A DNA stretch of 20,184 nucleotides from positions 1 to 20,184 of IMG/VR virus record IMGVR_UViG_3300007734_000430; one strand, 5' to 3'. The notes under the pieces are model-generated. The model ran no database searches, was not told the origin of the DNA, and saw only the letters and a list, made by a program, of their open reading frames with translations. This DNA is from a virus. Below, one piece after another: positions 2,303-12,142 of this stretch (positions are counted from its first letter, which is position 1; the number at the start of each line of letters is the position of its first letter). The translations under genes were made by a program, and so were the position numbers.

Positions 2303-4440
2303 TGGCACTACTAGACTTCTTCCGACGACGACGACCCGACCTGACGACCAAAGCGGTCTACGACGATTCAAAGTTTGTTCAATCATCCATCTCGATTCTC
2401 GACAATGCTGCAGGGCGTGGCAAGTTGCCACCATTTTCAATGCAGCGGAGCGTGCTCTCATTTGAATCTTGGGTGTACGCAGCGGCAATGCTCAATGCGC
2501 AGGCCGCATCGAGTGTGCCTCTGCGTTTATATGTTCGTGCAGATGCGCAAGGACCGCAAAAGTTCTGGCGCACTCGCAAGGTGTCTCGATCTCGCAAGGC
2601 GTATCTACTCGGAGACAGTGAGCGCAAGCCATCGCCGAGCGTGATGAAGTCGGCAGCAACTGCAGGCGATTTCGAGGAGGTCGTTGATGCGCATCCGATC
2701 CTCGAGTTGCTTCGCAAGGCGAACCAGTACGAGGACGGCTTCTCGCAGAGCGTGATGCGCATGCTCTACATGGAGTTGTGCGGCAATGCGTATCTGCATG
2801 TCGTGACTGACAAGGCTCTCGGCGTGCCATGCGAACTGTTCACCGTGCCTGCGCAGAATGTCACGATCCTGCCCGGCAAGACTCAACTGGTCGAGGCGTA
2901 TCTGTACGGCACGGATCGAAACTCGATGCAGCGGTTTGAACTCGACGAGATCATCCACTTCAAGCGACCCAACCCACGCAATCTTTACTACGGGCTCGGC
3001 AAGGTGGAGGCTGCGTACGGTGCGATCCAACAATCGCAAGCAGCGCACATTCAGGATCTGTCGTTCCTTGAGAACATGAGCCGACCCGACTATGCAGCGA
3101 TCGTAAAGGGTGGCGCAAGCGAAGCGTCGATGCGGCGGTTCGAGGAGTCGATGAGGTCGCTGCACCAGGGAACTCGCAAGAGTGGTCGCATGGTCACGAT
3201 CAGCGGCGACATCCAACTGATGCCGCTGAATTTCCCAAGCAAGGATCTGACTGGTCGTGATGACATCGTTGAGGAGATCTCTGCGTGCTTCGGCGTTCCA
3301 GTCTCGATGCTCAAGGCAAACGATCCGAACCTCGCATCGGCGCAGGCGGGCTACTCGATGTGGCGTGAGACAACGATCGCACCGATCTGCCGCATGGACG
3401 AAGAGACGCTGAACAGTCGACTGCTTCCGTTGTTCGGCATCCACGAGGATGCTTACTTGGCGTACGACAATCCCGTTCCCGAGAACCGAGTTGCAGACTC
3501 TGCCGAGCGATCGGTTGCAGTTGCGGGCGGATGGCGCACACCCAACGAAGCACGACTCGAAGAAGGCTACGAAGCACTCGAGACACCGCACGCCGACATG
3601 CTGCATGTCAACGGCTTGCCACTTGGTGGAGTGCCACCAGTCTCGCCGTTCGGCGCACCTGCTCCGATGCCGTCATACGCAGCACCTGCACCTGCACCAG
3701 TCGAAGAGCCTGCGCAGTTGCCACCGACTGCAGAGGTTGAACAGCCTGCAGCAAAGGCGTTGTCTGATGTCGACACTACACCGACTGACGAGATGGCGAC
3801 GCTCGCACTCCGTGGGCTCAAGTATCGTGAGGAGTTCGGGCGTGGCGGGACTGCCGTCGGCGTTGCACGAGCACGAGACATCGGCAACATGGTCTCGCTT
3901 TCGCCTGACACGATCGGACGCATGAACAGTTTCTTTGCTCGTCACCGTGTGGATCTCGATGCAGTCGGCGCACGATCAGGCGACGAGGGATATCCAAGCG
4001 CAGGTGCGATTGCTTGGATGTTGTGGGGCGGCGATCCGAACAACCCTGACGGTGCAGGCGCAGCGTGGGCTGCACGCAAGGCGGAGGAACTCGCAGGCGC
4101 AAGCGATGTCAAATCCAAGGCGGTCGACTGTGTCGGCGACAAGATCTCGACGCTGATCGGCGAGGGCTATGCGCAGGACCAAGCCGTGGCGATTGCGATC
4201 TCGATGTGCGGTGGCAAGTCGTTCGATGATGCGTTGATCGAATACGAAAGTGCACGGCAGGAAAAAATGGCGAGCGCACGCATCAAGATCGCAGCGATGG
4301 AAGCGAAGGCGTGGGACGCAGTGCAGCAACAACCAAAGATCGAGGCGTTGCAGGCTGAACTCGACGCGATGAAGGACCGCACGAAGTCACTCGATGAGAT
4401 CGTGACGATGCTGACCGAAGCACTCGGAGACGAGGCGTGA
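2302..4440 (+). CDS. Portal protein with long C-terminal extension
   Basis: The portal forms the dodecameric ring at one capsid vertex through which DNA passes and to which the connector binds. The start at 2302 (MALLDFFRRRRPDL) overlaps the terminase stop as TGATG. The reading frame also runs further upstream, but only inside terminase code. Residues about 1-430 match the HK97-type portal pattern, including a typical core segment (YGLGKVEAAYGAIQQSQAAH) and VPVSMLKANDPN. A Pro/Ala-rich linker at about 437-487 leads to three extra parts. Residues about 505-600 form a compact domain (GLKYREEFGRGG, VARARDIGNM, GYPSAGAIAWMLWGGDP). Residues about 610-638 hold a short motif (DKISTLIGEGYAQDQAVAIA). 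A charged probable coiled coil fills about 648-712. I remember both small elements as recurrent in phage head proteins, function unknown. At 712 residues it is far longer than the usual 400-500. Confidence 0.92.
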   Translation: MALLDFFRRRRPDLTTKAVYDDSKFVQSSISILDNAAGRGKLPPFSMQRSVLSFESWVYAAAMLNAQAASSVPLRLYVRADAQGPQKFWRTRKVSRSRKAYLLGDSERKPSPSVMKSAATAGDFEEVVDAHPILELLRKANQYEDGFSQSVMRMLYMELCGNAYLHVVTDKALGVPCELFTVPAQNVTILPGKTQLVEAYLYGTDRNSMQRFELDEIIHFKRPNPRNLYYGLGKVEAAYGAIQQSQAAHIQDLSFLENMSRPDYAAIVKGGASEASMRRFEESMRSLHQGTRKSGRMVTISGDIQLMPLNFPSKDLTGRDDIVEEISACFGVPVSMLKANDPNLASAQAGYSMWRETTIAPICRMDEETLNSRLLPLFGIHEDAYLAYDNPVPENRVADSAERSVAVAGGWRTPNEARLEEGYEALETPHADMLHVNGLPLGGVPPVSPFGAPAPMPSYAAPAPAPVEEPAQLPPTAEVEQPAAKALSDVDTTPTDEMATLALRGLKYREEFGRGGTAVGVARARDIGNMVSLSPDTIGRMNSFFARHRVDLDAVGARSGDEGYPSAGAIAWMLWGGDPNNPDGAGAAWAARKAEELAGASDVKSKAVDCVGDKISTLIGEGYAQDQAVAIAISMCGGKSFDDALIEYESARQEKMASARIKIAAMEAKAWDAVQQQPKIEALQAELDAMKDRTKSLDEIVTMLTEALGDEA

Positions 4441-6362
4441 GCGACAAGGAAAAGATCAAGGCGGCCGTCAGCAAGTTGCGGCGCAAAGATCCTCGAGTGA
4501 TCGCCATCCGCAACATGATTGCGCTGGCGAAGGCGAAAGGCACACCAGGGGACACAGGCAAGGACGGCATCGACGGTCTGCGTGGTGCGGACGGCATCAA
4601 TGGCATGAACGGCATCGACGGTCTGCGTGGTGCTGACGGACTGCACGGCGCAAAGGGACTTGACGGACTCAAGGGTGAGGTCGGCGCAGTCGGTCCGCAA
4701 GGCGACAAGGGCGAAGCCGGGATGATCTGGCGTGGCACATATCGCAATGACATCGAGTACGACATCGGTGATGTTGTCGGCGTGAGTGGCTCGGCTTATG
4801 TTTGCGTCGCTGCAACAAACCAAGCACCACCAGTCGGCTTCGGTTGGGAGTTGCTTGTGTCTCGTGGTGCGCAAGGTGTGCGTGGAATCAAGGGCGAGGA
4901 CGGAACTGGTGGCGGCGGCGCAGCAGCGGCAGGCACATTGACGGGCGCAACACTTGCCGCCAATGTCGTCACATCGAGTCTCACGCAGGTTGGAACGCTT
5001 GAATTTTTGACGGTCACAAATACGATCACTGGCAGTATCACGGGCAACGCAGCGAGTGCAACTGTTGCAACAAGCGCAAGCTCTGCATTGACTGCAACGA
5101 CTGCGACGACTGCAACGAGCGCAACCACCGCTGCAACAGTCACAACAGCAGCGCAACCGACGATCACATCGGTCGGCACGCTGACCGCCATCAACACGAG
5201 CGGAGTCATCACAGGCACGAACACGACTGCATCGACATCCTCGACAACAGGTGCTCTCATCATCGCAGGTGGCGTTGGCATTGCGAAAGACTCGTTCATT
5301 AACGGTCATCGCATCGGCGTTGGATTGTTGGCAAGTCAAACGAATCTTGCAGTCGGAACAAATGCGCTCAACTCAACAATCGCACTCGGCGTTGACAATG
5401 TTGCCGTTGGATATTTAGCGGGACAAAATGTCACGAGCGGTGCAAACAATGTCATGCTCGGCAGCAATGCTGGATTTTCAAACACAAGCGGCGCATCTTA
5501 CAATGTTTTTCTTGGCAGCAATGCGGGATACTTTATTACTTCGGGCAATGAAACAACTTGCGTCGGTGGTGATGCAGGACGAAGGCAGGCTGACGGCTCG
5601 ACAAATATGACCGCATCGAGCAACAGTGTCTACATCGGATACAACGCAAAAGGATTCAACAACTCTGACAGCAACACGATTGTCATCGGTTCAAACGCAA
5701 TTGGTCTCGGCGCAAACAAGACAACGATCGGCACATCGTCCACCACAGAGACCAAGTTGTTCGGACAACTGACGCTCGATGCGACCGCTTGCATCTCTGC
5801 ATCAACTGCGACTGCGCTTGCGCTCAAGACAGTAGTTCCCGCAGGGACTGGTGTCACGCCGACCGTGCAAATTATCTGTCCATCGGCTGCGTACACGCTC
5901 ACAAACGGGACTGGAGCGCAAGCAGTTTTCAACACGGGGATGAGGACGATCACGCTTCAGGCATCAACAACCTATATGTTCGAGGGTCAGTACCTGATTA
6001 CGACAGGCACAACGACACACATCACATCAATGAGTTTCGTGCTGACATCGGCGACGATGACGAATTGCAATTGGGCAACTGTGTCAGGTTCACCTACTGC
6101 ATTGAATGCAGGAAGTTCTGGCGCATTCACCGCAATTTTTAATTCAGTTGCAGGCGGTGCTATCAACACGACAACAACTGCAGCAAACAAAGTGATCACA
6201 TTCAAGGGAATCATGCGAGTCAATGCCGCAGGAACACTTGTTCCAAACATCGCATTCTCTGCAGCACCAGGTGTCACCTGCTCGACATTGATCGGCTCGT
6301 ACATCAAGTTCTATCCCATCGGATCGAACACGATCGACAGCGTCGGGACTGCGATCTCATGA
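4437..6362 (+). CDS. Collagen-like, beta-roll fibre protein (possible head fibre)
   Basis: This 641-residue modular protein starts at a GTG overlapping the portal stop (GTGA). A basic helical N-terminus (residues 1-34) is followed by 20 uninterrupted Gly-X-Y triplets (35-94). Next comes a small aromatic domain at about 95-144 (MIWRGTYRNDIEYDIGDVVG to GWELLVSRG), resembling the carbohydrate-binding-like modules often strung between phage collagen repeats, and then a second short Gly-X-Y run. A Thr/Ala-rich stretch (about 195-245) precedes repeated NxAxGxxA-type units at about 303-434 (NLAVGTNAL, NVAVGYLAG, NVMLGSNAG, NVFLGSNAG, SVYIGYNAK, TIVIGSNAI), the pattern of trimeric YadA-head beta-rolls. 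A beta-rich C-terminal domain (about 443-641) may be the tip. This architecture indicates a trimeric surface fibre. Its place between portal and MuF suggests a head-attached fibre, although tail use is possible. Confidence 0.82.
   Translation: MSDKEKIKAAVSKLRRKDPRVIAIRNMIALAKAKGTPGDTGKDGIDGLRGADGINGMNGIDGLRGADGLHGAKGLDGLKGEVGAVGPQGDKGEAGMIWRGTYRNDIEYDIGDVVGVSGSAYVCVAATNQAPPVGFGWELLVSRGAQGVRGIKGEDGTGGGGAAAAGTLTGATLAANVVTSSLTQVGTLEFLTVTNTITGSITGNAASATVATSASSALTATTATTATSATTAATVTTAAQPTITSVGTLTAINTSGVITGTNTTASTSSTTGALIIAGGVGIAKDSFINGHRIGVGLLASQTNLAVGTNALNSTIALGVDNVAVGYLAGQNVTSGANNVMLGSNAGFSNTSGASYNVFLGSNAGYFITSGNETTCVGGDAGRRQADGSTNMTASSNSVYIGYNAKGFNNSDSNTIVIGSNAIGLGANKTTIGTSSTTETKLFGQLTLDATACISASTATALALKTVVPAGTGVTPTVQIICPSAAYTLTNGTGAQAVFNTGMRTITLQASTTYMFEGQYLITTGTTTHITSMSFVLTSATMTNCNWATVSGSPTALNAGSSGAFTAIFNSVAGGAINTTTTAANKVITFKGIMRVNAAGTLVPNIAFSAAPGVTCSTLIGSYIKFYPIGSNTIDSVGTAIS
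4566..4633 (+). repeat. 45-bp-period direct repeat in collagen-coding DNA
   Basis: A 23-base identical segment occurs at 4566-4588 and again at 4611-4633. The period is 45 bp, exactly five Gly-X-Y triplets, and it encodes GIDGLRGAD twice. Nucleotide identity at this level suggests recent in-frame duplication, or a site for length variation by slippage or recombination. Confidence 0.75.
5091..5160 (+). repeat. Low-complexity Thr/Ala-coding microsatellite-like tract
   Basis: The DNA repeats imperfect ACTGCAACG-like units that encode a TATTATSATTAA-type stretch within the fibre gene. It is probably a flexible linker or stalk segment between the collagen part and the beta-roll repeats. Confidence 0.55.
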
Positions 6363-7270
6363 CACACAACAAAGCCTGCCCATGCCTCACCTGCAAGTCT
6401 GCGAAGCCTCCGCTGTGGTGGATCGACTTCAACGCAGAAAAACAAGTCATCGTCAAGGACGGAATCAGCGAGAAATTCGCTGCGGCCGAGGCTCGAGCCG
6501 TTCGTGCATTCGCCGAAGGCATCCAAGCCGACATCGACAAGGTGATCGAAGAAGTCTCACGTAAACTCTCCGCATCCATTCGTGCAGGCGACACGGTGAC
6601 ACAGCGACAACTCGAAGAAGTCCAGGCGGCACTCAAGGCATCGCAGAAGAAACTCATCGACGATCTTGCGAACACGGCCAAGCCGTACGCACAAACAATC
6701 GCAGAGGCTGGACTCTCGCAAGGCGCATCCCTTCTGCCCGATGGATCTCTTGATCTCGGGCTTCTTTCTGGCAAGGCTTCCGAGTTCGTCGTGCAAGCGA
6801 CCAACCGTGCAGCCATTCGCATGGCACGATCAGTCTCCGACTCACTCGCAGAGCGTGTGTCAAACATCATTCGCATCGGCATCGAGGAGACAGCGACAGG
6901 CACAGATGTCATCGGGCTGCTCGAGGAAGCAGGCTTCGACGAGAACCGTGCGCAGACGATCGCACGAACAGAGTCTGCTCGTGCGTACACCGATGGACAG
7001 AATGCAGCGTGGGAGGCGAGCGGAGTTGTGAAGGGCAAGACATGGCTCGTGTCTCCGTACGCTTGCGAGTTCTGCGAAGCCGCGGCAAAAGAGTTCGGCG
7101 AGAAATCAGTCGGCGTGAATGATGCGTTCTACGAGCGAGGCGCAACGCTCACCGCTGCAAGTGGCGCAACTATGGCACTAGACTTTGATGACACGAGCGG
7201 ACCGCCCCTGCACCCGAACTGCAGGTGCAGCCTGCTACCAGTAATCGACTACGAAGGACCAGACGAATGA
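6359..7270 (+). CDS. MuF/SPP1 gp7-like head morphogenesis protein
   Basis: This minor head protein is usually packaged inside the capsid close to the portal. The 303-residue product starts at ATG 6359, overlapping the fibre stop (ATGA). A long helical middle region (about 40-200) leads to the conserved MuF C-terminal domain. That domain shows RTESARAYTDGQ starting at R203, the Cys pair CEFC at 236-239 after a tryptophan strand (KTWLVSPYA), and HPNCRC at 285-290, which together mark the family (Pfam phage Mu F-like). The N-terminus carries an additional CPCLTC cluster (about residues 8-13) that is not part of the usual domain. It lies just before the protease and capsid genes, as expected. The MuF assignment is firm. 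The role of the N-terminal cysteines is unknown. Confidence 0.9.
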   Translation: MTHNKACPCLTCKSAKPPLWWIDFNAEKQVIVKDGISEKFAAAEARAVRAFAEGIQADIDKVIEEVSRKLSASIRAGDTVTQRQLEEVQAALKASQKKLIDDLANTAKPYAQTIAEAGLSQGASLLPDGSLDLGLLSGKASEFVVQATNRAAIRMARSVSDSLAERVSNIIRIGIEETATGTDVIGLLEEAGFDENRAQTIARTESARAYTDGQNAAWEASGVVKGKTWLVSPYACEFCEAAAKEFGEKSVGVNDAFYERGATLTAASGATMALDFDDTSGPPLHPNCRCSLLPVIDYEGPDE

Positions 7271-7950
7271 ACCTACAAAAAACCTGCAACGCAACATTCA
7301 AGGCGATCGGCGATGGACTGACAAAGTTCACGGCGATCATCACAACGCACGCCATCGACCGTGATCAGGATGTCGTGATCCCGTCAGGCATGAACTCGAA
7401 AGAGTACGAGTCGAATCCAGTCCTGCTCTACTCGCACGACCCGAACAAGCCGATCGGAAAGATGGTCACGATGCGCCGTGGCGAGTCATCGATCGATGCA
7501 GACTTTGTCCTTGCGCCTCGACCCGACACACACGAGGGCGAGTGGCTGCCTGACACCGTGGGCGCACTCATGAAGTTTGGCGCACTCAAGGGCGTGTCGA
7601 TCGGATATATGCCGCTTGATGGCGGCGTGCGAAGGGCAAGCAAGGAAGATGCGACCAAGTACGGCACAGGTGTCAAGCAGGTCTACAGCAAGTGGAAACT
7701 CCTCGAGGTGTCCGTGGTCTCGATCCCGTCGAACCAAGAAGCGTTGATCAACGCCGTCAGCAAAGGCATCGTGACGACTGCAAGCCTCAAGGCTCTCGGC
7801 TGCAATGTTCCCTTGGTGAAACTTGCGCCAGTCGTCGTCGAACCCAAGCCGATGCACCGTGTGCAGATTGTCATGCCTGCGTATGTCAAGTCTGACATTG
7901 CCGACGCTGCGAAGGTTGCGATCAGCAAGATGCGTGGACAGTTTCGCTGA
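7267..7950 (+). CDS. HK97-type prohead protease
   Basis: This serine protease cleaves the N-terminal scaffold part of the capsid protein during prohead maturation and then degrades itself. From ATG 7267, which overlaps the MuF stop (ATGA), the product is 227 residues, normal for the family. Family landmarks are the entry DRDQDVVIPSG (31-41), the catalytic His in LLYSHD (H57), the catalytic Ser in LKGVSIGY (S111) and the later strand LLEVSVVSIPSNQEA (about 145-159). The 70 residues after that are unlike the core and may be a self-cleaved tail or capsid-targeting part. An in-frame ATG at 7225 would lie inside the MuF gene, and the overlapping ATGA start is preferred. The capsid gene downstream is the expected substrate. 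Confidence 0.93.
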   Translation: MNLQKTCNATFKAIGDGLTKFTAIITTHAIDRDQDVVIPSGMNSKEYESNPVLLYSHDPNKPIGKMVTMRRGESSIDADFVLAPRPDTHEGEWLPDTVGALMKFGALKGVSIGYMPLDGGVRRASKEDATKYGTGVKQVYSKWKLLEVSVVSIPSNQEALINAVSKGIVTTASLKALGCNVPLVKLAPVVVEPKPMHRVQIVMPAYVKSDIADAAKVAISKMRGQFR

Positions 7951-7962
7951 CCCGCCTATAGT
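7935..7962 (+). promoter_or_regulatory. Candidate sigma70-type promoter for the capsid genes
   Basis: TGGACA at 7935-7940 and TATAGT at 7957-7962 each match the -35 and -10 consensus at five of six positions, with a 16-base spacer. The -35 lies in the end of the protease gene. Transcription would begin near 7968-7970 and leave a leader of about 98 bases before the capsid ATG. It sits ahead of the longest non-coding gap in the window, which supports it. No experiment is implied, and the host sigma preference is unknown. Confidence 0.55.
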
Positions 7963-8066
7963 CTCAACATACAGGTGATTCGGATCGGTGACCCTGACAG
8001 GTCGAACGAGTGACTCGAACTGCGGCGTAGTTCAATTCATTTATTCCCCTCATCAGGAGACATCAC
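7951..8066 (+). promoter_or_regulatory. Capsid-gene leader region
   Basis: This 116-base gap is the longest non-coding stretch in the window. It contains the -10 element, a leader with short inverted repeats (for example GACC/GGTC near 8000 and CGAGT/ACTCG near 8010) too small to call a structure, and a Shine-Dalgarno AGGAGA at 8055-8060, six bases before the ATG. I see no small ORF or RNA gene in it. Confidence 0.6.
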
Positions 8067-9437
8067 ATGAAAATGTGCAACATTGAGACTCTGCGAAAAA
8101 CTTTGCAGGCTCTCGCAAACCAGGTCGGATCGAAGAAGTACGAGACCTCCAAGGCTCTCGTCCTGCAAGATCTGATCATCACGGACATGGACGGCAATGT
8201 GCTCGATCCATCCACAATCGACTATTCAGTCGAACTCATGCCGACAGGCGCAACCGAAGATCCCGCAGTCGAACTCGAAGCAGCACCAGTTGCTGATGCG
8301 AAGACGATCGCAGACGAAGTCGCCAAGGCCGTCAAGTTGGAACTCTCCAACAAGGCAGCCGCTCACCCAATCACAACCCGAAAGGAAGTTACAGTGGAAC
8401 GAAAAATTTACTCACGAATCAAAAACTTCAAGAACAACGACGATGCTTTCCGCTTCGGCTCGTGGGCTCTTGGATGCATCGGTTTCAAGAAGTCTGCGCA
8501 GTGGTGCGCTGACAACGGCATCATCACCAAGATCGCAAACATCGAAAGCACAAATCTTGCAGGAGGTTTCCTCGTTCCTGAAGAATTTGAGAACACGCTC
8601 GTCACTTTGCGTGAACAATTCGGAGTGATCCGAAATCATGCTCGCATCGTGCCGATGGCATCCGACATCAAGCGCATGCCACGACGATCTACAAATCTGT
8701 CTGCATCATTCGTTAGTGAAGCAAGTACTGCAACAGCAGTGAACGAAACATTTGACCAGATCAATCTCGTCGCAAAGAAGTCGATGGTCTTGACCAAGTT
8801 CTCAAGTGAACTTGCTGAAGATGCCGTCATCAACTTTGCTGACGACTTGGCTGGAGAAATGGCGTACGCACAGGCGAAACTGGAAGATCAGTGTGCATTC
8901 ATCGGCGACTCAACCTCGACCTATGGTGGCATCACTGGACTTGCAACTGCAGTCGGATCTGCAGGAGTTTCAACTGCAGCAAGTACAACTGCGCAGTCAA
9001 TCACGCTTCCAGAAGTTATGGCAGCATTCGCTCTCTTGCCACAATACGCAGACAACGCAAACGCAAAGATTTTCTGCAACAAGACAATCTGGAACGCTTT
9101 GTTCTTGCGTCTTGCATATGCGACAGGCGGACAAAATGCAGCAGACCTGATAAGTGGAAATGGTCAACTCGCTTTCGCTGGATATCCAGTTGTTCTCACG
9201 CAAGCGATGAACAATTCGACAGCAACTGGCAAGATCATGTGCCACTTCGGAGACGCATCGCAAGGAATTTATTTTGGTGATCGTCGACAGACAGCAGTCG
9301 ACTTCAGCAATTCTGCCTTGACAAGTTTCGAGACCGATATGCTTGCATATCGTGCAACGACTCGTTGGGATCTTGTTTGCGCAAATGTTGGTGATACAAC
9401 GAACGCAGGTTCAATGATCACTCTCAAGACCGGTTAA
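8067..9437 (+). CDS. Major capsid protein, HK97 fold, with N-terminal scaffold-like region
   Basis: This is the shell subunit, 456 residues. Residues about 1-105 are acidic and helical (DAKTIADEVAKAVKLEL) and resemble the delta/scaffold part that the prohead protease removes, and the mature protein probably begins near residue 105-115 (KEVTVERKIYS). The body has classic HK97-family text: NLAGGFLVPEEFENTLV, the E-loop region with FVSEASTATAVNETFDQINL, and the spine-helix segment with FSSELAEDAVINFADDLAGEMAYAQAKLEDQCAFIGD. After that come the P- and A-domain strands to TRWDLVCANVGDTTNAGSMITLK. AGGAGA six bases upstream supports ATG 8067. The Met at 8073 is a less well-spaced alternative. Strong ribosome site, own promoter and downstream terminator fit high expression. 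Confidence 0.95.
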   Translation: MKMCNIETLRKTLQALANQVGSKKYETSKALVLQDLIITDMDGNVLDPSTIDYSVELMPTGATEDPAVELEAAPVADAKTIADEVAKAVKLELSNKAAAHPITTRKEVTVERKIYSRIKNFKNNDDAFRFGSWALGCIGFKKSAQWCADNGIITKIANIESTNLAGGFLVPEEFENTLVTLREQFGVIRNHARIVPMASDIKRMPRRSTNLSASFVSEASTATAVNETFDQINLVAKKSMVLTKFSSELAEDAVINFADDLAGEMAYAQAKLEDQCAFIGDSTSTYGGITGLATAVGSAGVSTAASTTAQSITLPEVMAAFALLPQYADNANAKIFCNKTIWNALFLRLAYATGGQNAADLISGNGQLAFAGYPVVLTQAMNNSTATGKIMCHFGDASQGIYFGDRRQTAVDFSNSALTSFETDMLAYRATTRWDLVCANVGDTTNAGSMITLKTG

Positions 9438-9467: not shown

Positions 9468-9917
9468 ATGGCTATGAATTTACAAGGTCTGAAACATGTC
9501 GTTGCAATCGCAACGCAATCGCTCGCAACCACTGCAACCGCAACTGGTTCTTCGATTGACACAAAGGGTTTTGAAGAGTTGCAAATTGTTCTCGTTCGTG
9601 CAACGCACGCATCAGACGCAATCACAACTTTCACGATTGAACAGTCCGACGATGACAGCACCTACGCAACCGTCACAGGTTATGTGCAAGGAACTGACTT
9701 CACCGTGGCCTCAATCATCGGTGGAACAAGTCAGGCGGCTGCACAGCCTGCCGTGTTCAATATCGATCTTCGTGGGAAGAAGCGATATTTCAGATGCAAA
9801 GTCACGCCAGCAACAAGCACATCGCTTGTCGGCGCAACTGCAATCCTTGCTCGTGCTGAACAAGCACCGATCACGGCTGCAAAGGCGAATGTGACACAGT
9901 TGGTCAACCCGACCTGA
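9468..9917 (+). CDS. Probable capsid decoration/accessory protein
   Basis: This 149-residue protein is rich in beta strand, Thr and Ala, with no membrane segment or catalytic motif. Segments such as GFEELQIVLVRATHA, TTFTIEQSDDDSTYATV and KRYFRCKVTPATSTS read like a single beta-sandwich domain, a type common in small phage head or tail surface proteins. It follows the capsid gene by 30 bases, has a strong ribosome site, and is the last gene before a strong terminator, so it is probably made in large amounts with the capsid protein. A cement or decoration protein on the shell is the natural reading. Homology to a named decoration family is not evident, and it could be another minor structural protein. 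Confidence 0.75.
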   Translation: MAMNLQGLKHVVAIATQSLATTATATGSSIDTKGFEELQIVLVRATHASDAITTFTIEQSDDDSTYATVTGYVQGTDFTVASIIGGTSQAAAQPAVFNIDLRGKKRYFRCKVTPATSTSLVGATAILARAEQAPITAAKANVTQLVNPT

Positions 9918-9939: not shown

Positions 9940-9979
9940 CAACGGCTCGGAGTCGAAAGATTCCGAGCCGTTGTCTTTT
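9940..9979 (+). terminator. Strong intrinsic terminator after the capsid genes
   Basis: The arms CAACGGCTCGGA (9940-9951) and TCCGAGCCGTTG (9962-9973) are perfectly complementary over 12 bp. Three more pairs (one G-U) extend the stem to 15 bp closed by a GAAA tetraloop at 9955-9958. TCTTTT follows at 9974-9979. GC-rich stem, GNRA loop and U-run make this a textbook Rho-independent terminator. Confidence 0.9.
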
Positions 9980-9998
9980 GCGTGGTATGTTGGTTTGC

Positions 9999-11249
9999 AT
10001 GAAACTAGATCTTGGATGCGGGACAACTCGGATCGATGGATACACACCGTGGGACTGGAGCACAAATAACGATGTGCAGTTCTTGCCGTTCGCAGATGGA
10101 TCGATCGAGGAGATCCGTGCCAGTCATGTACTTGAGCACATCGAGCGTCCGTACCTGCTCGAGGTCGTGCAGCACTGGGTGGACAAATTGCAACCAGGTG
10201 GAATCCTGCGCATCGCAGTCCCTGACTTCGACGAGATCATTCGCCTCGCTGCGCTCGATCGAGATCAGGAAGATCAGAGCGGCAAGCCATTTCCGTGGGA
10301 AGGCTACATCATGGGTGGGCAGAGCGACTCGTTCGATCAGCATCACACCTTGTGGAACGATCCAAAGTTGCGAATGCTTTTCAATCAGGTCGGCATCACA
10401 GAGATTCTGCCGTGGAAAAACAGCGAGCCGCTCGACTGCAGTGATCTCCCGATCTCGCTCAACCTCGCAGGTCGCAAGCCGTACGCAGTTGGAGAGTTGA
10501 CGCAGCCGCCAAAGTATCCCGACATCCGAGGCGTGATGACTATGCCGAGACTGACATGGACCGACACGATGTTCTGTTGTCAGAAAATTACGAGCGCACT
10601 CGGCATCGAGATCACGAACTCGTCAGGCGTGTTCTACGGGCAGGGCATGCAGCGCATCCTCTCGATGCACGCACAGGATACGAGCATCAAGTGGGCTCTG
10701 ACTATTGACTACGACAGTTTATTTGACTGGAAAGATCTGGTCGCCATGGTGGAGATCGCAACTCGGGAAAATTTAGATGCGCTCGCTCCGCTGCAAAGTG
10801 GTCGTGAGCGACTCGCTCCGCTTTGCGTTGCATCCACCAACTGGATTCCTCGACGCATCAACACGCACGATCTGCAGCAGGACTGGTTCGAGGTTTCGTC
10901 GATGCATTTTGGGCTCACACTCATTCGCATGGACTCGCTGCGCAAGTTGCCCAAGCCGTGGTTTCTCGCAACGCCAAATGCAAGCGGCGACTGGGAAGGC
11001 GACAAGGTTGACGACGATATCCACTTCTGGAAACAAACGCAGAAGGCGAACTGGAAGATCGGCGTGACACCGAAGGTCTCCATCGGTCACATCGAGACAG
11101 TCGCAACATGGCCTGGACCGAAGTTGCAATCGCTGCACCAGTCGACGCACAACTATCTGCGATCAGGCAAGCCGTGGTATGTCAAGAGTCGCGAGGGTTG
11201 GCGCAACGGTCCGCAGGATCAACCGCCCGAAATTGTCAAGCCTGCATAG
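9999..11249 (+). CDS. Bifunctional SAM methyltransferase / glycosyltransferase-like protein
   Basis: This 416-residue protein joins two enzyme-like parts. Residues 1 to about 165 form a class I methyltransferase. LDLGCG at 3-8 is the SAM loop, SHVLEHIERPYLLEVV at about 42-57 and KLQPGGILRIAVPDFDE at about 63-79 are typical of small-molecule or sugar methylases. Residues about 175-395 look like a GT-A-type glycosyltransferase. They contain ALTIDYDSLF with a DYD at 237-239 as the metal-binding DxD candidate, HFGLTLIRMDSLRKLP (about 303-318), the acidic VDDDIHFW (337-344) and SIGHIE (361-366). The likely job is adding and methylating a sugar on a virion protein, which is inference. The start is placed at ATG 9999 because MKLDLGCG is the usual opening. 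In-frame ATG 9987 and TTG 9978 are weaker, the latter inside the terminator U-run. There is no good ribosome site. Confidence 0.8.
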   Translation: MKLDLGCGTTRIDGYTPWDWSTNNDVQFLPFADGSIEEIRASHVLEHIERPYLLEVVQHWVDKLQPGGILRIAVPDFDEIIRLAALDRDQEDQSGKPFPWEGYIMGGQSDSFDQHHTLWNDPKLRMLFNQVGITEILPWKNSEPLDCSDLPISLNLAGRKPYAVGELTQPPKYPDIRGVMTMPRLTWTDTMFCCQKITSALGIEITNSSGVFYGQGMQRILSMHAQDTSIKWALTIDYDSLFDWKDLVAMVEIATRENLDALAPLQSGRERLAPLCVASTNWIPRRINTHDLQQDWFEVSSMHFGLTLIRMDSLRKLPKPWFLATPNASGDWEGDKVDDDIHFWKQTQKANWKIGVTPKVSIGHIETVATWPGPKLQSLHQSTHNYLRSGKPWYVKSREGWRNGPQDQPPEIVKPA

Positions 11250-11257
11250 GATCAAAT

Positions 11258-12142
11258 ATGGCAGTAGGACTATACGCACTCTCGACACTCGCTCAACTCA
11301 AATCGCACCTCGGGATCACGCTCTCAACCGACAATACGATCCTCGAGGGCTACATCGATCACGCAACGGCGAAGATCGAACGGTGGATCGGACGACAGAT
11401 CCTCGTGCGAAATTATTTTGAGTGGTACGGCGGCAACGATGTCCGCAGCGTGCGTGTTAAGCAGTATCCGATCAACAATGTTGTCGGCGTGTACACAGGA
11501 CTTGCCGCAGCGATCACGATCTCATCGACCGTGGCAAGCGATATCCGCCTGACGATCTCGATCAACACCGATCCACTTGGCACGGTGGCGAACGGCGCAC
11601 TCGCACCGTGCGCAGTCCTGACACGCACGACCAGCGCAGGCACGACGACCACGAGCACGCTGCTTTTCTCAACCTATCCCGACACGACCTCGCTTGTCGC
11701 TGCCATCAACGCAATCACGGGCTACAGCGCAACAGTGTCGACTGCGATGCGATGCGCACAACTGCATCCTCGTGCCGGTGGCGACATCAAGATGGCGACC
11801 GTGGTGCTCACAGGTGTCAATGTCTCGAGCGAGTTTGTCTACGACTCCTATCTCGGGATCGTCACGATCCGTCAGGACGCATTCCCGATGGCATCGCACA
11901 ACGCGAGATATCCAAGTGCGCTCCAGTCAACGCTGATCGAGTACTCCGCAGGCTATACGACTGCTCCCGATGACATTCATCAAGCGTGCTTGGTCATCGC
12001 AGGCACGATGTACTTGTCTCGCAAGTCCGACACATCGCTGCAGAGCGAGTCGCTCGGCGACTACTCGTACTCGATGGCGAGTGCGGATTCGTCACGAGCA
12101 ATGATGGAGGACATGCTCGGGAGTTGGAAAGAGATCCGATGA
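11258..12142 (+). CDS. Head-tail connector protein (gp6-like) with an inserted domain
   Basis: This protein forms the ring beneath the portal that starts the head-tail joint. The start is ATG 11258, with AGGA at 11248-11251 as ribosome site, giving 294 residues. The N-terminal helices LSTLAQLKSHLGI...DHATAKIERWIGR (about 8-46), the strand VRVKQYPINNVVGVYT (about 65-80), then LIEYSAGYTTAPDDIHQACLVIAG (about 226-249) and SESLGDYSYSM (about 263-273) follow the gp6-like connector pattern. Residues about 83-190 are a Ser/Thr-rich, beta-type insertion absent from typical members of 100-200 residues. It is followed directly by the stopper gene through an ATGA overlap. Confidence 0.85.
   Translation: MAVGLYALSTLAQLKSHLGITLSTDNTILEGYIDHATAKIERWIGRQILVRNYFEWYGGNDVRSVRVKQYPINNVVGVYTGLAAAITISSTVASDIRLTISINTDPLGTVANGALAPCAVLTRTTSAGTTTTSTLLFSTYPDTTSLVAAINAITGYSATVSTAMRCAQLHPRAGGDIKMATVVLTGVNVSSEFVYDSYLGIVTIRQDAFPMASHNARYPSALQSTLIEYSAGYTTAPDDIHQACLVIAGTMYLSRKSDTSLQSESLGDYSYSMASADSSRAMMEDMLGSWKEIR

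Follow-up and report, generated by a model that had tools for sequence, protein, structure and literature searches.

We analysed a stretch of 20,184 nucleotides (hereafter the window), i.e. positions 1 to 20,184 of the IMG/VR virus record IMGVR_UViG_3300007734_000430, with a focus on one open reading frame (ORF) combining a methyltransferase (MT) with a putative glycosyltransferase (GT). The following genes and features were considered:

8067..9437, + strand: major capsid protein (MCP; Phage_capsid, profile match), candidate acceptor
9468..9917, + strand: small decoration-like head protein (phrog_5707), upstream neighbour and candidate acceptor, which precedes the GT in most loci
9940..9973, + strand: intrinsic-terminator-like hairpin of 15 pairs just upstream of the gene (folding; kept in relatives)
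9986..9991, + strand: candidate -10 element TATGTT, ending 7 nt before the ATG (TANNNT conservation; putative function)
9999..11249, + strand: MT-GT fusion gene P0001, 416 aa (translation, 46 relatives, AlphaFold model with pLDDT 77)
9999..10472, + strand: N-terminal class I SAM methyltransferase domain, residues 1-158 (phrog_6636, Pfam Methyltransf_23/11 below cut-off, PDB folds, dN/dS 0.066)
10005..10022, + strand: SAM motif I LDLGCG, residues 3-8 (GxG kept in 69/85 fused MTs)
10521..11183, + strand: predicted C-terminal GT-A glycosyltransferase domain, residues 175-395 (fold prediction, phrog_1574)
10707..10715, + strand: DxD motif DYD (237-239), expected metal/nucleotide-sugar site (both D invariant, 199/199)
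10905..10913, + strand: HFG motif (303-305; H and G invariant, 199/199)
11010..11018, + strand: DDD motif (338-340) before FW(K/R), likely catalytic-base region (D340 199/199, D338 198/199)
11085..11090, + strand: GH motif (363-364; 199/199)
11258..12142, + strand: head-tail adaptor (Phage_connect_1, profile match), downstream neighbour

Elsewhere in the window, a DNA N6/N4 methylase gene (22-792; PF01555, 2.5e-25) adjoins the terminase gene at the left edge, and a collagen-like protein (4437-6362) is encoded between the portal and morphogenesis genes. Gly-X-Y runs were also found in the related loci L069, L073, L178, L181 and L183.

The ORF at 9999-11249 (+) is a real gene: relatives spanning the full length of its 416-aa product, at 41-98 % identity, occur in independent contigs, and the first scan gave 46 loci with relatives. 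In one relative (L013) a stop codon lies in frame three codons before the ATG matching window position 9999, so this ATG is the only one common to the relatives and the right start. Residues 2-88 match phrog_6636 ‘methyltransferase’ (1.5e-8). Against the Pfam models Methyltransf_11/23/25 the MT half of the window protein stays under the cut-offs (19.3 vs 21.2 and 19.7 vs 27 bits), and the relatives L113, L246 and L276 pass that of Methyltransf_11. The motif I GxG (LDLGCG) and a predicted Rossmann-like fold assign this half to the class I SAM methyltransferases, and it may resemble the COG4627-type enzymes. The GT half matches phrog_1574 ‘unknown function’ (3.5e-6); in the window protein no curated model was matched by sequence in this half, Pfam Glycos_transf_2 (PF00535) included, and the relative L125 passes the latter (24.5 bits, cut-off 23.3).

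Structure prediction was more informative on the C-terminal half. The AlphaFold model of the whole protein (mean pLDDT 77) retrieved both SAM methyltransferases and GT-A enzymes from the PDB, with TM-scores of 0.42-0.48 for the best single-domain methyltransferase matches. A relative with an eroded MT half, L037, was modelled with a pLDDT of 90 and a pTM of 0.80; its best PDB matches were LH3, COLGALT1, STIV A197, mimivirus R699, GlfT2 and GalNAc transferases, with values down to 3e-8 in this model lacking an intact MT domain. As two independent models match GT-A enzymes, the C-terminal half is by prediction a GT-A-fold protein; at 7-16 % identity, these modelled likenesses to the GT-A superfamily do not give specificity. 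The original prediction, made from the sequence alone, described a fused MT and GT-A-like protein with LDLGCG at residues 3-8, DYD at 237-239 and SIGHIE at 361-366: translation places the motifs exactly there, phrog_6636 and the predicted folds agree with the fusion, and a C-terminal half without any glycosyltransferase fold, the outcome that was to speak against it, did not occur.

Nine residues of the GT half are identical in 199/199 aligned sequences, i.e. D237, D239, R269, H303, G305, D340, W344, G363 and H364, so that both aspartates of the DxD metal/nucleotide-sugar motif are invariant. Within the window clade, purifying selection acts on the two halves, and more strongly on the MT (dN/dS 0.066) than on the GT (0.121); the linker gives 0.39. 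No transmembrane-like segment was found in the protein (maximum KD19 1.07), a result that speaks against a membrane O-antigen enzyme.

The genomic context of the gene is constant. In the first-scan loci holding the neighbour genes, the order is always capsid, small decoration-like protein, MT-GT gene and Phage_connect_1 adaptor. In order to avoid a choice of loci by the GT gene itself, further loci were picked by MCP alignments alone: 119 of the 124 with more than 2.5 kb downstream carry the GT, i.e. 119/123 once L127, which ends inside the methyltransferase and is uninformative, is set aside. Among the loci without GT, L254, L260 and L269 have other genes after the decoration gene, and in L198 two decoration-like genes are directly followed by the adaptor (6446-8331), making the latter a natural GT-free site useful for comparison. 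A non-redundant set comprised 202 GT loci under 95 % identity; the GT lies between decoration/capsid and adaptor/neck genes in all 155 with both sides detected. Two scans with GT alignments gave at least 596 and at least 598 confirmed stretches, which means that the family extends beyond the loci sampled here. Across these loci the GT is a near-universal core gene of the head module in this lineage. A separate observation concerns the decoration-like genes, of which up to three tandem copies stand directly before the GT gene in L095 (4202-5483), L097, L098 and L100-L103; such copies occur mostly in a lineage with eroded methyltransferase.

The gene had been placed inside the head module, between the terminator of the capsid unit and the connector gene; from its place just after this terminator and its lack of a good ribosome site, it had been considered a possible separately acquired or weakly expressed insertion. 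Its position is confirmed by the 155 loci above, and the terminator by the hairpin at 9940-9973 (-29.1 kcal/mol over a 61-nt stretch, z = -5.6 vs shuffles), which L022 and L024/L025 also have, with stem sequences unrelated to it. A recent insertion or weak acquisition is contradicted by the presence of the GT in 119/123 MCP-chosen loci and by its fixed position in 155/155, and was rejected. There is indeed no Shine-Dalgarno site, as stated, and weak expression does not follow from it: 16/16 representative loci of the window clade have a TANNNT 6-7 nt ahead of the ATG and lack a Shine-Dalgarno site, a conservation that suggests an own promoter giving a leaderless mRNA rather than weak expression. 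In other lineages TANNNT was found in 0/44 loci and a Shine-Dalgarno-like site in 24/44. No -35 match was found for the candidate promoter. Between the terminator and the ATG (window 9974-9998), the conserved element TTTTGCGTGGTATGTT is present in 16/16 clade loci and 0/44 others. The leaderless-promoter element is possibly a clue to an actinobacterial host.

Searches for relatives of the GT half among 50,697 phage records, mycobacteriophages included, gave no match, and a cultured phage model was sought and not found. A search of sequenced genomes for a prophage or host gave only six genome contigs, all from metagenome-assembled genomes. When the genomes around two of these six contigs were surveyed, the 395 taken from one family yielded only a single match, and of the 294 taken from a phylum one genome held two strong matches; with so few matches, lysogeny looks rare.

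We further assessed the MT part across the 202 GT loci. An N-terminally fused MT spanning the core is present in about 84, a shortened remnant in 44 and, in its place, an unrelated CmoB/TIGR04290-like domain in 15, and in the remainder the MT is absent from the ORF. An audit of motif I in the 85 loci with a fused MT reaching this region found the strict GxG in 69, a loose form in three and no motif in 13. Erosion is visible in several states: the SAM motif is lost and the later part retained in L028 and L033, and a short stub is left in L034-L040. LDLGGG in L041, which could pass for a weak motif I, is probably due to chance. The 15 loci with the CmoB/TIGR04290-like domain form one clade of the GT tree (98 % SH-aLRT). 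Fusion order and partners also vary: L276 has the GT followed by the methyltransferase in one ORF, and L229 joins a methyltransferase, an FkbM-like domain and the GT. Separate FkbM genes stand directly upstream of GT-only ORFs in L234 (PF05050, 2e-12) and L257 (6e-10), and downstream of one in L265 (weak match, 0.003). Dehydratase genes are found as well, with a GDP-mannose 4,6-dehydratase between the decoration gene and the MT-GT gene in L246 and L247 (PF16363 about 1e-115; TIGR01472 below cut-off), and dehydratase-type genes near the GT in seven loci, i.e. these two and five further ones.

On a GT tree of 144 sequences, architecture requires at least 11 changes vs 65 for shuffled labels, and erosion requires several changes. 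In a smaller tree, intact methyltransferases lie on both sides of the midpoint root. Taken over the loci compared, the GT is the constant part and the methyltransferase the exchangeable one, a point that the original prediction did not make. Two loci show other arrangements: L340 (3293-6663) has two methyltransferase-GT units in tandem, and in L126 methyltransferase and FkbM-like domains are encoded upstream of the portal gene (2491-3440), the GT there having no fused methyltransferase.

We consider it likely that the gene encodes a glycosylation enzyme of the phage head module, acting on a virion protein of the same module, with the SAM domain O-methylating the sugar. The GT-A half would take the sugar from its nucleotide carrier and attach it to a virion protein of this module, most likely either the decoration-like product of the preceding gene or the MCP, and the N-terminal SAM domain would then O-methylate the transferred sugar. 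The GT would form the constant core of a cassette, around which methyltransferases of different families have been recruited, fused, moved or lost. The GT fold with its invariant residues, the fixed capsid-side place, the recruitment of methyltransferases and the dehydratase genes together point to the building of a methylated sugar. Enzymatic activity, the identity of the sugar, the protein that accepts it, the sequence of the two steps and the benefit to the phage are inferred. A 6-deoxyhexose is suggested by the dehydratase-type genes near the GT, from which alone this identity is drawn. The head-module position is circumstantial evidence for the acceptor, adjacent-encoded virion proteins being the simplest candidates. 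An acceptor Ser/Thr conserved in the decoration family was sought and rejected, none being invariant across the family alignment, so no acceptor site stands out. The proposal of a dedicated enzyme adding a sugar to virion proteins is retained as the most likely role. For the lineage as a whole, we lean slightly towards virion glycosylation being kept as a near-obligatory, vertically inherited part of the head module, with at least three MT families swapped, fused in either order, split off and eroded around it, i.e. a modular sugar-plus-methyl system that would diversify capsid surface chemistry.

Other targets and roles were weighed against this one. Phage GTs often act on DNA, and the window also has the DNA methylase at 22-792, so the enzyme could glycosylate and methylate modified phage-DNA bases, of the T4 or Thanatos type, and block restriction; the fixed place of the GT between structural genes in 155/155 loci, the dominance of protein-glycosylating enzymes among the fold matches and the lack of a base-hypermodification gene among the annotated head-module genes (the window itself being a fragment) make this unlikely. 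Rather unlikely too is an action on the host surface, where a modified receptor glycan would prevent superinfection or the re-adsorption of progeny. Phages are known to glycosylate and methylate host-surface glycans, and lipid-linked or surface glycans are conceivable substrates of the cassette, but the protein has no membrane segment (maximum KD19 as above), its gene belongs to the head module and not to lysogeny genes, and lysogeny looks rare given the genome counts above.

The fold matches to LH3, COLGALT1 and mimivirus R699, together with 21 Gly-X-Y triplets in the window protein at 4437-6362, raise the question of a collagen-like tail or fibre protein as acceptor, as in eukaryotic and mimivirus collagen glycosylation. 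Such runs were seen only in the window and five related loci and occur in 0/40 GT-bearing loci with both portal and morphogenesis genes; this protein was therefore rejected as a general acceptor, and we hold it to be quite improbable that it is the acceptor, although it may be an extra one in the window clade. A non-catalytic function, in which the GT fold would serve structure or assembly at the head-neck junction and the MT half be a passive appendage, would account for the near-universal head-module position, the erosion of the MT to a stub in many lineages and the confident folding of the eroded version. It seems very improbable, since the catalytic-type residues are invariant in 199/199 sequences, different methyltransferases and dehydratase-type genes were recruited repeatedly, and purifying selection in the window clade strongly constrains the MT half.

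The preferred reading, virion-protein glycosylation with sugar methylation, was compared with known systems. STIV A197 (PDB 2c0n) is also a small virus-encoded GT-A and gave the closest single-domain match by fold (TM-score 0.67-0.72 when normalised to A197), but it comes from an archaeal virus, has no methyltransferase and shares 12-15 % identity. LH3/PLOD3, COLGALT1 and mimivirus R699 have a metal-binding DxD-type site and a protein acceptor. They share the GT-A fold, predicted here, and differ by their 7-16 % identity, by other accessory domains and by their collagen-like substrates, such proteins not having been found in most loci studied.

In chlorovirus PBCV-1, A064R joins GT(s) and a SAM methyltransferase in one protein, the latter methylating the rhamnose at the end of the major-capsid-protein glycan (PMC9614988), and the virus also encodes a second methyltransferase and a GDP-mannose dehydratase (PMC9614988; PMC7826918). 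A064R, with A061L and the GMD A118R, resembles the present system as a virus-encoded GT-methyltransferase fusion; it differs by its eukaryotic giant virus, its two GT domains, its C-terminal methyltransferase and its other GT families, and would be the closest worked-out analogue, probably a functional and convergent one. The closest phage analogue would be the virion glycosylation of mycobacteriophages. As described in two reports, GT genes of Che8 and its relatives modify capsid and tail-tube proteins (PMC11256854, PMC11600133), three tandem GTs lie downstream of an O-methyltransferase gene in Cluster O (PMC11600133), and the GT genes of Maravista lie near the 3' genome end, virion glycosylation being reported there in a few phage clusters (PMC11256854, PMC11600133). 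Both systems belong to tailed phages and bring a GT together with a methyltransferase; the mycobacteriophage GTs and methyltransferases are separate genes, whereas here one fused GT has a fixed head-module place throughout an uncultivated lineage, and the 50,697 phage records hold no sequence match to the present GT half.

Glycosylation of phage virions has been shown for a few clusters of mycobacteriophages, whose GT genes lie apart from the structural genes; the candidate enzyme described here is a core head gene in a lineage of at least several hundred contigs with no cultured GT relative. If it is active, these environmental phages would as a rule, and not exceptionally, have capsids that are both glycosylated and methylated, and the swappable methyltransferases would provide a natural experiment on the gain and loss of sugar methylation.
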